From positions 1 to 32,588 of the forward strand of contig JADFNO010000021.1 of NCBI GenBank assembly GCA_022563315.1: DNA of 32,588 bases, in the 5' to 3' direction. Positions 17,624 to 21,400 of this stretch are shown one piece after another. Below the pieces are notes generated by a model. The model had not been told where the DNA came from. It worked only from the letters and a program-made list of their open reading frames with translations, and did not search any database. A program made the position numbers and the translations under genes. The stretch comes from Planctomycetota bacterium (GTDB lineage Bacteria > Planctomycetota > Phycisphaerae > Phycisphaerales > SM1A02). How positions within the stretch are numbered: the first letter of the stretch is position 1; each line of letters begins with the position of its first letter.

Positions 17624-18724
17624 ATGCCGCTGACCAACGAACATGTGCGCGACGCGCTGCGAACCGTCAAGGACCCGGACCTTCACAAAGACCTCGTGAC
17701 GTTGAACATGGTCAAGGACGTTCGCGTGGACGGCGAGGACGTCACAATCCACATCGAACTGACGACGCCGGCCTGTCCGCTGAAGGACAAGATCCGCGAC
17801 GACATCGTGCAGGCCGTCCGAAGCAAAGGCGAAGAACTTACGGAACCCGTCGGCGAGATTACCGTGGAGTTCTCCGCCGATGTCCGCAGCCCCAACCAGC
17901 GAACTAAGGATAACGGCAATCCTCTGCCGGATGTGAAGCATGTCATTGCCGTCGGCGCGGGTAAAGGCGGCGTGGGCAAGTCAACCATCGCGGTCGCGCT
18001 CGCCGTCGGGTTGGCAAAATTCGGCGCAAGGACCGGCTTACTCGATGGCGATATCTATGGCCCATCGCTCACGACCATGCTCGGACTCGACGACATCCAG
18101 GCCAAAACCCGCGGCAATACGCTCCTGCCCTTTGAAGTGCACGGGATCAAGGCGATGACCATCGGCAAGCTGGTGCCGCCGGACAAGCCGCTGATCTGGC
18201 GCGGCCCGATGGCGCATGGCGCGTTTAAGCAGCTCGCGACGCAGACGGACTGGGGTGAGTTGGACTATCTGATCGTGGATCTGCCGCCGGGCACGGGCGA
18301 TGTCCCGTTGACGCTGACGCAACTGTTGCCGCTGACGGGGGCGGTCGTCGTCTGCACGCCGCAGAAGGTCGCGCGGGACGACGCGCGTCGAGCCGTCAAG
18401 ATGTTCCAGCAGCTCGGCGTGGAAATGCTGGGAATCGTTGAGAACATGAGCTACTTTGTCGGCGACGATGGCAAGACCTACGACATCTTCGGCCGAGGCG
18501 GCGCGGAGATGCTCGCCCAGGAAATGGGCCTGCCCTTCCTCGGGGCCGTGCCGATCCACATGGAGCTGCGCGCGAATTGCGACGACGGCCAGCCGCTGAA
18601 GAACTGGCAGGTCAACGAGGAACTGGCTGAGGAACTCGATCGACTCTGCAAGAACCTCGCCTCACAGATCTCGATCGCCACCATGAGCGGCAAGTTCGTC
18701 CAACCAACGCTGTCGATCCGATGA
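17624..18724 (+). CDS. mrp: Iron-sulfur cluster carrier ATPase Mrp/ApbC
   Basis: Residues 1-85 form a MIP18/DUF59 domain with the conserved TPACPLKD cysteine. A ParA/MinD-type ATPase follows, with the deviant Walker A GKGGVGKST at 113-121, LLDGDIYGPS, IVDLPPGTGD and IVENMSYFV. Such proteins bind and hand over 4Fe-4S clusters in the cytoplasm. The usual CPxCG after ENMSYFV is absent: here residues 280-284 read GDDGK, so the cluster-bridging cysteine pair of ApbC is missing, although the rest, YDIFGRGGAEMLA, is conserved. ATG 17624 has GAGG nine bases upstream. The last codons, SGKFVQPTLSIR, recur in diverged form at 20568-20606 beyond the next three genes. Confidence 0.93.
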   Translation: MPLTNEHVRDALRTVKDPDLHKDLVTLNMVKDVRVDGEDVTIHIELTTPACPLKDKIRDDIVQAVRSKGEELTEPVGEITVEFSADVRSPNQRTKDNGNPLPDVKHVIAVGAGKGGVGKSTIAVALAVGLAKFGARTGLLDGDIYGPSLTTMLGLDDIQAKTRGNTLLPFEVHGIKAMTIGKLVPPDKPLIWRGPMAHGAFKQLATQTDWGELDYLIVDLPPGTGDVPLTLTQLLPLTGAVVVCTPQKVARDDARRAVKMFQQLGVEMLGIVENMSYFVGDDGKTYDIFGRGGAEMLAQEMGLPFLGAVPIHMELRANCDDGQPLKNWQVNEELAEELDRLCKNLASQISIATMSGKFVQPTLSIR

Positions 18725-18734
18725 ACGACTGGGC

Positions 18735-18764
18735 TTGACATGTCGTATGAGGGTGGGGCAAGAT
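18735..18764 (+). promoter_or_regulatory. Probable sigma-70-type promoter of the three-gene cassette
   Basis: A consensus -35, TTGACA at 18735-18740, begins 11 bases after the mrp stop. With 18-bp spacing a weaker -10, CAAGAT at 18759-18764, follows (AGATACT nearby is an alternative with longer spacing). The GTG start with GGAGG is just downstream, so the cassette is probably transcribed on its own. Confidence 0.5.
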
Positions 18765-18786
18765 ACTAAGCCCTGGAGGCGCGATT

Positions 18787-19617
18787 GTGGGCTCATCACC
18801 TGATGCCGCTCAGACGAGAAGTGGCCCGAAATTCGACAACCCGCCGGTTGTGGAGACAGCGCTCGGCATCCAGTTCGTCGAATTGCCCGGGTTCAACACA
18901 ACTCACTTCGGGCTATTTCACGAGGAAATTTGTGATCGGTACGCGGTAGCCGTGGATCAGCCCCGGCTAGACCGGATCATCGAGACGTTTCCCAAGGCGG
19001 TGCGAACTCCACATTTCAAGCTCAGAACCGCACCGAGGCCTGAACGGGTGTGGTTCAAGGATTCACCTGACGGATCGCGCCTCGTTCAGTTGCAGCCGGA
19101 TCGCTTTGGCTTCAACTGGCGAAAGCCAGACGAGGAAACACAGTACCCGAGTTACTCTGTTAACAGTCAGCTATGCCTCGCCGAGTTTCGTGTTTTCACG
19201 GAGTTTTGCGAGCGACAAGGGTGGCCGGTGAAGCCTGACCTCTGCGAAGTCGTTTATGTGAATCAGATCTGGCCGGTCCAGGGCGAATCGGTGATCGACC
19301 TCTTTGCGAACATCTTCACCGGGATCGGCTGGGGAACGAGTGACGACTGGCTCCCCTCTCCCGAAGTCGTGACACTCAACCGAGTATTTGAGATACCGGA
19401 GCAACGCGGCCGCCTGTACGCCGAGGCAGGACTCGCGATCGACAAGGACGAAGGACCTTTCATCAATCTCCGAATGCTCGGCCGCGCTTTGCACACCAGC
19501 GGCAATCCCAGTGATATCGAAGATACCTTGCGGTTGGCGCACGACTGGGTAGTGAACGGGTTTGTCAGCTTGACAGACCGCACCATAAGACAAGAACGAT
19601 GGGGTCAAAGGATATGA
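18787..19617 (+). CDS. TIGR04255-family protein (sporadically distributed family)
   Basis: The protein opens with KFDNPPVVETALGIQFVELPGF, the PPxxE-type N-terminal strand of the TIGR04255 family, and includes LVQLQPDRFGFNWRKP with a YPSY segment (residues about 95-120), EVVYVNQIWP, and a C-terminal DTLRLAHDWVVNGFVSLTD helix, all of which fit. It is soluble with no signal peptide. The family's biochemical function is not known to me. Start GTG 18787 has GGAGG eight bases upstream. Its stop overlaps the next start as ATGA, so the two proteins are probably made together. Base composition looks slightly less GC-rich than mrp by eye, not counted. Confidence 0.75.
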   Translation: MGSSPDAAQTRSGPKFDNPPVVETALGIQFVELPGFNTTHFGLFHEEICDRYAVAVDQPRLDRIIETFPKAVRTPHFKLRTAPRPERVWFKDSPDGSRLVQLQPDRFGFNWRKPDEETQYPSYSVNSQLCLAEFRVFTEFCERQGWPVKPDLCEVVYVNQIWPVQGESVIDLFANIFTGIGWGTSDDWLPSPEVVTLNRVFEIPEQRGRLYAEAGLAIDKDEGPFINLRMLGRALHTSGNPSDIEDTLRLAHDWVVNGFVSLTDRTIRQERWGQRI

Positions 19618-20084
19618 CTGAAGGAACTGCGGGTGTGGTGTTCTCAGGAGCCGAAACAATAACGGCTGACGCCTCCCCGTCAGGCGAATCATGTGAAGCG
19701 TTTAGTCGCCAGCCCGTGCTTGCCTTGCGCAGCGCACCAGCATGGCTGGATGAGCGCATCGGTCAGCTTCGGTCGCTCCTCCAACTCCAAGACAATTGGG
19801 ACAGTTACGGCGGACGCGCCATTGATAGGCAGTCAGTGGAGATCGCAACGCAGTTGCTCAAGGCGCTTGCCGTCGTCGAGGGCGTTGAAGCGCCAACAGT
19901 CACGGCATCGCCAGATGGCAATGCGGCGCTGTGCTGGGACAACGGCCGGCGCAGTTTGGATCTAGAAGTTATGCCAGACGGCCGTTTTGAGTACGTGTTC
20001 CTGAATGAGGAGGACGCCTCGAAGGATGACGAAGGGATCACGAGCAGTGCTGAGGGGTTTGCTGAACTGCTGACTGCCTGGTAG
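19614..20084 (+). CDS. Unknown small protein, translationally coupled to the TIGR04255 gene
   Basis: The 156-residue protein is acidic and soluble. Its N-terminal 35 residues are low in complexity. The core has LRSLLQLQDNWDSYGGRAIDRQ, a pattern (helix, then NWDSYG) seen in small uncharacterised proteins of varied bacteria, followed by a helix ATQLLKALAVV and a beta-rich half, VTASPDGNAALCWDNGRRSLDLEVMPDGRFEYVF. The start ATG at 19614 overlaps the previous stop (ATGA). An upstream ATG at 19599 in the same frame is less likely. No function can be named. The coupling suggests that it works with the TIGR04255 protein. Confidence 0.7.
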   Translation: MTEGTAGVVFSGAETITADASPSGESCEAFSRQPVLALRSAPAWLDERIGQLRSLLQLQDNWDSYGGRAIDRQSVEIATQLLKALAVVEGVEAPTVTASPDGNAALCWDNGRRSLDLEVMPDGRFEYVFLNEEDASKDDEGITSSAEGFAELLTAW

Positions 20085-20125
20085 GTCACAGAGTACTTGT
20101 CAGGTGCAAGCAAAGCGTACGAAGC

Positions 20126-20563
20126 ATGGCTGATTCGCGCCCGATCGCAGACGAAGAAGTCATCCTAAAGCGCGTGCGAGCGAACGATCCACACTGTATC
20201 CAACCGTACGGCGACGGCTATCGAGCTACGAGTTTTGCAGTCAGGATTCCGCCCGGCCAGGAGGGATCATCGTGTAGCCGCTTGCGACTCACGAGCCCAC
20301 GGACGCTCCTTTCGCTGGTAACACTCCAGGGCGGGTCATCTGACGACTACTTAGTCTGTCGCATGCGTGTGACAGATGTGCGAGCGCTGAATCTTGAGGT
20401 GCTCGCACTTCCGACGGATGAGGATCCGGGCCACTGCGAAATCCGCAAGACGGTCGGCCAGCACTACCCGGCTTCGGTTTGGTCCAGGTTGGCGAAGACG
20501 ACCCGAATCTTGACCGCGGCAGAGGTCGCAAGCATCGAGGCGGGCGATGAGTTAGTCGAATGA
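20126..20563 (+). CDS. Unknown 145-aa protein, third gene of the cassette
   Basis: A soluble protein with four cysteines (in DPHCIQ, SSCSRLR, LVCRMR and GHCEIR) and the segments ILKRVRANDPHC and DGYRATSFAVRIPPGQ near the N-terminus. The second half, VTDVRALNLEVLALPTDEDPGHCEIRKTVGQ, appears beta-rich and ends in a short helix. I do not recognise a named family. The arrangement faintly recalls short proteins with an HP...dGr..S.aF pattern, but this is weak. ATG 20126 lies 41 bp after the previous stop with a poor ribosome site. The diverged copy of the mrp tail follows five bases after the stop codon. Whether it forms a system with the two genes before it is inference from adjacency. Confidence 0.62.
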   Translation: MADSRPIADEEVILKRVRANDPHCIQPYGDGYRATSFAVRIPPGQEGSSCSRLRLTSPRTLLSLVTLQGGSSDDYLVCRMRVTDVRALNLEVLALPTDEDPGHCEIRKTVGQHYPASVWSRLAKTTRILTAAEVASIEAGDELVE

Positions 20564-20567
20564 AGTG

Positions 20568-20606
20568 AGTGGAAAGCCTGTCCAGCCAACGCTGTCGGTT
20601 CACTGA
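20568..20606 (+). pseudogene. Second, diverged copy of the mrp 3' coding end
   Basis: In one frame this reads SGKPVQPTLSVH and then TGA, against SGKFVQPTLSIR and TGA at the true mrp end (18685-18724). Thirteen bases running from CCAACGC onward are identical, and most other differences are at third codon positions. The stop codon here overlaps the stop of the convergent gene at 20600. The simplest reading is that this is the original mrp end, displaced when the three-gene cassette arrived together with a homologous replacement end. Confidence 0.7.
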
Positions 20607-21400
20607 GAGAACGAACGAAGTGATCGGCCCGGTGGAACGTGACTCATCTTATCCGCCGACTCTTGGTCGATGTCGGCATCGTCCGAGGGAATGACTTGGC
20701 TCTCGTCGGCCCTGATCGGCGTAATGTCGAGCGTCGTGCGATAATCGGCGCCGTCGGGCAGCCGCTGCTCACCTTCGATCCGTTCGATGAGCATCGATTC
20801 GGGATTGACGTACAGATCGAATCTGGCGGTGTAGTCCTCGCTGAGCCCATCACCACTGGTGAGCTGTAGATGGACCATTGAGTTGTTGTCGATGGTCACC
20901 GTTTCGATCTTGGTGGGCGTGAAGCCTTCATCGACGCCGAGTCGGAAGTCTTGAAGCGGTTCGTCGGTGAAACGAAGGGCCATATGCGGCGCAATCCAGA
21001 GGTTGTACTTCTGGACGAACGCATCCATAGCCGGGCTGGTGTTGAGGGGCACGTCCAGACCAATGCCGTCGCGCACCTGTGACCCCGGCGTTTCGACGCG
21101 CAGCTTGTTGTCTTGGATGGTGGCGGCGATGCGGGTTTCGACGCGCTGTGGTTCCTCGCCGGGCCTGGTGGTGATCTGCACCACGTCGGCAACGTCCTCA
21201 TACGAGACCAGCCGACGGTAGCGATCGACCAGCGACTGGAAGAACGCCCGGGCATCCGCGCGATCGGCGCCGGCGTCTTGCGACGCGGTAATGTGAGGTG
21301 AGGAAATTGAGCCGACCGTGTTCTGATCCACCGACGCGGCGGCGCTTCCCAGGAGAAGAACGGCGTGAGCGACGACGATGGTGTGGGTGAACCTGGTCAT
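20600..21400 (-). CDS. Exported DUF2092/LolA-like protein
   Basis: A signal peptide (MTRFTHTIVVAHAVLLLGSAAAS, split as a basic start, a hydrophobic core and small residues at the cut) precedes a predicted beta-sheet protein. FFQSLVDRYRRLVSYEDVADVVQI is the start of the DUF2092/LolA-like pattern, followed by strands such as NKLRVETPG, MALRFTDEP, MVHLQLTSG and ARFDLYVNPESMLIERIEGEQ. The fold suggests binding of a lipid or hydrophobic partner in the periplasm, but this protein's role is unknown. The frame opens at 21511, but ATG 21400 starts the signal peptide and is preferred, giving 266 aa. It converges on the mrp cassette. Confidence 0.6.
   Translation of the reverse strand: MTRFTHTIVVAHAVLLLGSAAASVDQNTVGSISSPHITASQDAGADRADARAFFQSLVDRYRRLVSYEDVADVVQITTRPGEEPQRVETRIAATIQDNKLRVETPGSQVRDGIGLDVPLNTSPAMDAFVQKYNLWIAPHMALRFTDEPLQDFRLGVDEGFTPTKIETVTIDNNSMVHLQLTSGDGLSEDYTARFDLYVNPESMLIERIEGEQRLPDGADYRTTLDITPIRADESQVIPSDDADIDQESADKMSHVPPGRSLRSFSQ

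Follow-up and report, generated by a model that had tools for sequence, protein, structure and literature searches.

A three-gene accessory operon with a predicted ADP-ribosyltransferase-like protein at the duplicated 3' end of a planctomycete mrp gene

Accessory and defence genes are often found by themselves among core genes, without any recognisable machinery of mobility nearby, which poses the question of how they got in. The stretch of 32,588 nucleotides analysed here (the window), one entire contig of a planctomycete genome (3.76 Mb, 96% complete) whose relatives are Phycisphaerales-type MAGs, raises this question in a compact form: three genes, which we call T, U and V, stand between two copies of the 3' end of mrp (Table 1). 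How did they come to this place, and what might they do there? The family of cassettes to which they belong leaves a legible mark at four genes in bacteria and a phage, where the 3' end of the adjoining gene is present twice, and the entry route can therefore be tested. What is new here is a gene-end inserted accessory element, in itself a known kind, that carries an unassigned operon.

Table 1. Features of the mrp locus and its cassette, in positions of the window.
Feature	Coordinates	Strand	Evidence or remark
mrp/ApbC-type Fe-S carrier ATPase, intact target gene	17624..18724	+	Pfam PF10609 3e-90, PF01883 1e-20
Left copy, resident mrp 3' end	18684..18724	+	Direct repeat D1
T, TIGR04255 family protein, 276 aa	18787..19617	+	52.5 bits against a cut-off of 30
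U, 161 aa	19599..20084	+	Second possible start at 19614, overlapping T by ATGA
V, 145 aa, predicted ADP-ribosyltransferase-like fold	20126..20563	+	AlphaFold2 pLDDT 92
Right copy, second mrp 3' end, SGKPVQPTLSVH-stop in frame	20566..20606	+	31/41 nt match to the left copy
Convergent gene, start uncertain	20600..21397	-	Directly 3' of mrp at the empty site L012
Final codons of the convergent gene	20600..20625	-	50% identity to sister L009, remainder of gene 97%

The two mrp ends are the longest direct-repeat pair between 17.0 and 22.5 kb of the window. They differ at about 24% of their positions, and up to the stop codon mrp reads SGKFVQPTLSIR where the second copy reads SGKPVQPTLSVH; the second copy abuts the convergent gene and is overlapped by the stop of that gene. 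The bracketing of three genes by two mrp-end copies and the termination of the second at the convergent gene, both claimed in an earlier, sequence-only reading of this DNA, are thus real. The gapped alignment of the copies scores 42 and the best of 300 shuffles 34, and about a dozen similarly weak pairs occur in 769 kb of related loci, so that by score alone the repeat in the window is weak. The pair is nevertheless secure because of its placement at the stop codon and because a perfect repeat of 36/36 nt stands at the same place in the related locus L011. A reading as a dispersed repeat was ruled out: the whole genome of the window holds just two such mrp ends, and elsewhere in the order the doubling occurs only in genome G636, the source of L011.

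The sequence-only reading had further held that the differences between the copies lie mostly at third codon positions, and that both copies descend from functional mrp ends. Six of the ten differences are at third positions and four elsewhere, which makes the first point weak evidence, and an mrp ending in GKPVQP or in SGKPVQPTLSVH was not found in any genome searched, relatives included, which leaves a functional origin of the second copy conjectural. The left copy differs at six positions from the mrp ends of the sister genomes L008 and L009, and five of these six are common to the right copy.

Orthologues of mrp share 65-98% identity across 80 loci. L011 belongs to a different genus within the same family and carries a related T-U-V after mrp at the identical site (66%, 52% and 50% identity to T, U and V of the window, respectively), bracketed by the perfect repeat of its own mrp end. 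Its congener L012, with an mrp 96.6% identical, provides the precise empty site, in which mrp is directly followed by the convergent gene; once the cassette and one repeat copy are removed, L011 aligns with L012 free of gaps. The sister genomes L008 and L009, the nearest to the window (mrp 96% identical at the nucleotide level), have no T-U-V after mrp. Taken together, the repeats and the empty site in relatives show an insertion at the mrp 3' end with that end duplicated, as had been proposed under the image of a core gene whose end is restored. The comparison of mrp loci that had been suggested as a check delivered the empty site running into the convergent gene, though not the mrp ending in GKPVQP, and the possibility that all relatives keep the cassette did not hold.

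The sister genomes bear a different insert of 1.84 kb at the same mrp 3' end (L008:3456-5290 and L009:4738-6572). It contains one minus-strand ORF of 444 aa built from repeats of about 70 aa (WADxHYxxTGxWP), for which no family match was found. Since L008 and L009 hold this other insert and L012 is empty, the 3' end of mrp is a variable site. Past the filled site of L011 (L011:9015-9300) the convergent gene looks truncated, with similarity ending about 170 nt beyond the right repeat.

Could the cassette simply be old? A single insertion in the common ancestor of both genera, followed by vertical descent and by losses in L008, L009, L012 and L013, would account for the T proteins located at mrp forming a supported pair (99/99) and for a nucleotide divergence of the cassette similar to that of the flanking genes. 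The two copies in L011 are, however, identical at 36/36 positions in spite of the far-reaching divergence of neutral sequence between the genera, and an old insertion would therefore need a recent conversion or a recent event; we regard this explanation as unlikely.

On the right side of the window's cassette, the convergent gene is 50% identical to the sisters over its last 26 nt, as against 97% over the rest of the gene and 90-96% for spacers within the genus, so that the right copy and these 26 nt diverge far beyond neutral spacers between sister genomes. Either import from a relative that had diverged, or a copy that is old and has decayed, would fit this. Homologous recombination with donor DNA that already held mrp and cassette, by which the lineage of the window would have imported T-U-V and the right copy from a diverged and already bracketed relative, is a tentative but real possibility. 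It agrees with this local divergence, with a comparable tract at the locus L157 described below, and with a divergence of T-U-V from L011 (T 66%) that exceeds that of mrp (84% at the protein level). It accounts for the spread of the cassette but not for the first duplication, no donor with a matching second copy was found in the genomes searched, and the flanks of L011 show no imported tract.

The duplication of a gene end belongs to the cassette rather than to mrp, because the pattern recurs at three other genes. Cassettes with a TIGR04255 gene are bracketed by duplicated 3' ends at mrp (two genomes), at a gene for a small basic protein, at ligA and at a phage tail gene, which makes five loci with four target genes, with repeats of 36-144 nt; the cassette starts within about 20 nt of the stop codon. 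Four targets in five loci, together with this start near the stop, make the arrangement a signature and not a coincidence. In L157 (G761, a congener of the window) a distantly related T-U-V begins a few nucleotides past the stop codon of the gene for the small basic protein; behind it stands a diverged repeat of the final 85 or so nt of this gene, whose alignment scores 54 where the null reached 30 at most. The window's own genome holds the empty version of this locus, to which the right tract of L157 (gene end and spacer) is about 70% identical before identity rises to about 97%. In L125 a T-U cassette on the opposite strand, with a different third gene, lies between two ligA ends that are 92% identical over 118 nt and both read VIAGENAGSKLEKAEKLGV. 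The viral contig L199 repeats, after V, the final 137 nt of a minor tail gene of NlpC/P60-like type, with 135/137 positions identical; the left copy ends LWG-stop and the right LWRSA-stop, and the cassette has therefore trimmed the left gene end, the right copy continuing into downstream DNA. T-U-V stands here between the minor tail gene and a tail protein gene (L199:5200-11329), a typical moron position.

No clear bracketing repeat above shuffles was found in 12 of the 17 cassettes examined. In the 769 kb of background only two comparably strong pairs occur, one from a tandem duplication of paralogues and one from a dispersed repeat family; L087:9028-10446 holds a 157-nt direct repeat of 98% identity that marks where a gene of 241 aa was duplicated in tandem, with no relation to the cassette. 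L159 is not a clean insertion and has no gene-end repeat: upstream of gatB in G755 (L159:2800-4850) T-U-V replaces 307 nt that both sister genomes keep, and the last 12 nt of the V reading frame fall in the shared host flank.

Beyond gene ends, the operon is met in several mobile contexts. The order T-U-V is preserved in distant planctomycetes; on a mycobacterial plasmid (L150) it directly follows a MobF relaxase gene, in L198 it follows a phage integrase, in L199 it lies inside the phage tail operon, and in L119 it belongs to an 8.4-kb tRNA-Met island with a tyrosine integrase. A search of plasmids and viral contigs with the single V sequence found none, and V in L150, L198 and L199 was recognised by synteny. 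Within one genus, three genomes carry three distant T clades at three loci, and among 181 genomes of the family V is present in 6. Mobile cargo is distributed in this way, and the joint occurrence of the three genes elsewhere, which had been suggested as a second check, extends to plasmid, phage contigs, tRNA-Met island and other gene ends. Because its relatives sit likewise at three other gene ends, one of them in a phage, T-U-V looks like a travelling bacterial conflict module and not a one-off scar. Between its two tRNA-Met 3' ends the island of L119 (L119:2334-10859) holds, besides the tyrosine integrase and T-U-V, a 557-aa protein with a caspase-like look, judged by eye, and an FGE-sulfatase domain; it is possibly a defence island.

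Known elements offer two points of comparison. Cis-mobilizable elements (CIMEs; PMC5704250) and other island remnants that lack an integrase resemble the cassette in that cargo stands between direct repeats, one of which is the end of the intact target gene, with no integration genes. Flanking repeats of an att-like kind are indeed present (36/36 in L011, 31/41 in the window), and neither T, U nor V is an integration or transfer gene. The cassette departs from a CIME in its repeats of variable length in four unrelated genes, in the lack of ICE or IME relics and in being a bare three-gene operon. Islands of the Islander type at gene 3' ends, which use a tyrosine integrase, leave an intact target gene and a displaced 3' fragment at the far end (PMC4383910), and to that extent the cassette is alike; it is unlike them in having no integrase, a length under 2 kb and variable target genes. 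As an autonomous island it would carry an integrase of its own, and none of its three genes is a recombinase, in line with the absence of an integrase that the sequence-only reading had noted.

A decayed, CIME-like element, with the repeats as attL and attR of a tyrosine integrase directed at the 3' end of mrp, since lost or acting in trans, deserves consideration. The direct repeats at a gene 3' end, the precise empty site, and the cassette relatives in an integrase-bearing tRNA-Met island and behind a phage integrase speak for it; it is at odds with repeats in four unrelated genes that have no single shared core, and with an insert that is the operon itself with almost no additional DNA. An integrase lies downstream of mrp in none of the 80 loci (in L073 one stands on the upstream side), the viral contigs yielded no attP with an mrp end, and no integrase-bearing element sharing a mrp-end att site was found in either set. 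We consider this explanation somewhat unlikely, and a remnant of this kind possible for mrp alone.

The explanation that we favour, with moderate confidence as a whole, is that T-U-V is a small mobile conflict operon without its own recombinase, added exactly at the stop codon of mrp with duplication of the gene end, and with V as an effector of the ADP-ribosyltransferase (ART) type. Arrival duplicated the mrp 3' end, leaving mrp intact on the left and a second end on the right beside the convergent gene. The cassette molecule would likely enter carrying, or re-copying, a piece of the end of its target gene: it might be a circle with a gene-end fragment that integrates by homology in a single crossover, or it might insert with a long and variable target duplication, and repeats of such lengths in unrelated genes fit either route. 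Subsequent spread among relatives would proceed by homologous recombination. In the window and in L157 the flanks suggest that recombination brought in the cassette together with its right flank from a diverged relative, the alternative being an old decayed copy; L011 and L199 look like fresh events. The different third gene of L125 counts against this explanation, as do the 12 of 17 cassettes without a bracketing repeat, the weak score of the repeat in the window, the lack of a significant Foldseek match for V with Z no higher than about 8, and the His that V has as third conserved residue in place of Glu. We give little credence to a bolder version, in which TIGR04255 operons are integrase-free gene-end cassettes, small molecules that carry the 3' end of their last neighbour and re-enter by homology, with an undescribed three-part system and its non-canonical ART-fold effector as payload; re-entry by gene-end homology would be the reason why the host gene is kept intact.

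What the cassette might do is best approached through V. Neither U nor V matches Pfam or NCBIfam, V matches no PADLOC model, and no recombinase or transfer gene is matched by any of the three. The AlphaFold2 model of V, compared with VIA-align 2, returned 25 top entries that all belong to the ART superfamily (Z 3.8-8.1; the next entry Z 3.4), among them Tpt1/KptA (Z 8.1), AvrPphF ORF2, DarT, RES, TreX, Tne2 and MbcT; Foldseek gave no significant match for V (best E 0.2). An ADP-ribosyltransferase-like fold is thus predicted. In an alignment of 17 sequences Ser49 and His103 of V are invariant, Arg15 and Arg16 are conserved at 90% or more, and the third conserved residue is His, with no invariant Glu. 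Known ART clades have the active sites H-H-h, H-Y-[EDQ] and R-S-E (PMC9503650), and an Arg-Ser-His set, as read here from the sequence alignment, would therefore be unusual.

With ART superfamily toxins such as RES, DarT and MbcT, and with Tpt1/KptA, V shares its predicted fold, and with them the small size of the protein and a compact, overlapping operon; it differs in having no sequence match to them and in its conserved residues, and T and U, its partners, do not belong to the known antitoxins. The predicted fold, the structure of the operon and its mobile setting make an NAD+-using effector of the ART type the most likely role for V, which T and U would hold or trigger. By the same predicted fold, the overlapping genes and the phage, plasmid and island settings, T-U-V may be a toxin-antitoxin-like or an abortive anti-phage module. 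The suspicion of an accessory, mobile and possibly toxin-like cargo is thus supported by the relaxase-side plasmid locus, the phage contexts and the predicted ART-like fold. The earlier reading as a whole is partly supported. A scan of the cassette for the sigma-70 consensus returned no promoter, and so did not recover the TTGACA one that it had placed there. It is the recurrence of this three-gene operon, with what is likely an NAD+-related effector and as a system absent from current defence catalogues, that lends the locus its wider relevance.

The assignment of T to TIGR04255 (NCBIfam, a 'sporadic' subfamily) holds well above the curated cut-off, with a match that covers model positions 1-251 of 252, and ten further T copies, all that were tested, pass the same cut-off. 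The family itself has no assigned function, and no mention of it was found in the literature searched. The AlphaFold2 model of T (pLDDT 86) compares best with guanidino kinases (Z 8.6, rmsd 4.3); TBP-like folds and others score nearly as well. The overlap of T and U is as it had been described, with either start of U.

U is kept after T in other operons and resembles the C-terminal 100 or so residues of PDC-M32A of the PADLOC candidate system PDC-M32 (7e-9, residues 54-151 aligned to positions 262-359 of the 375 in the model). The cassette is otherwise unlike PDC-M32, in that the match is to this C-terminal part only, and not to a full-length M32A with its own N-terminal domain, and V has no counterpart there. 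T as the N-terminal half of PDC-M32A was ruled out on sequence; complete M32A proteins start with another domain. U is a modular domain: it occurs behind TIGR04255 proteins and behind DUF4209 proteins as well as at the PDC-M32A C-terminus, and it seems to pair with several unrelated partners. On two Hymenobacter plasmids (L148:1019-3402 and L149:2256-3363) a U-like protein is encoded directly 3' of a DUF4209 gene.
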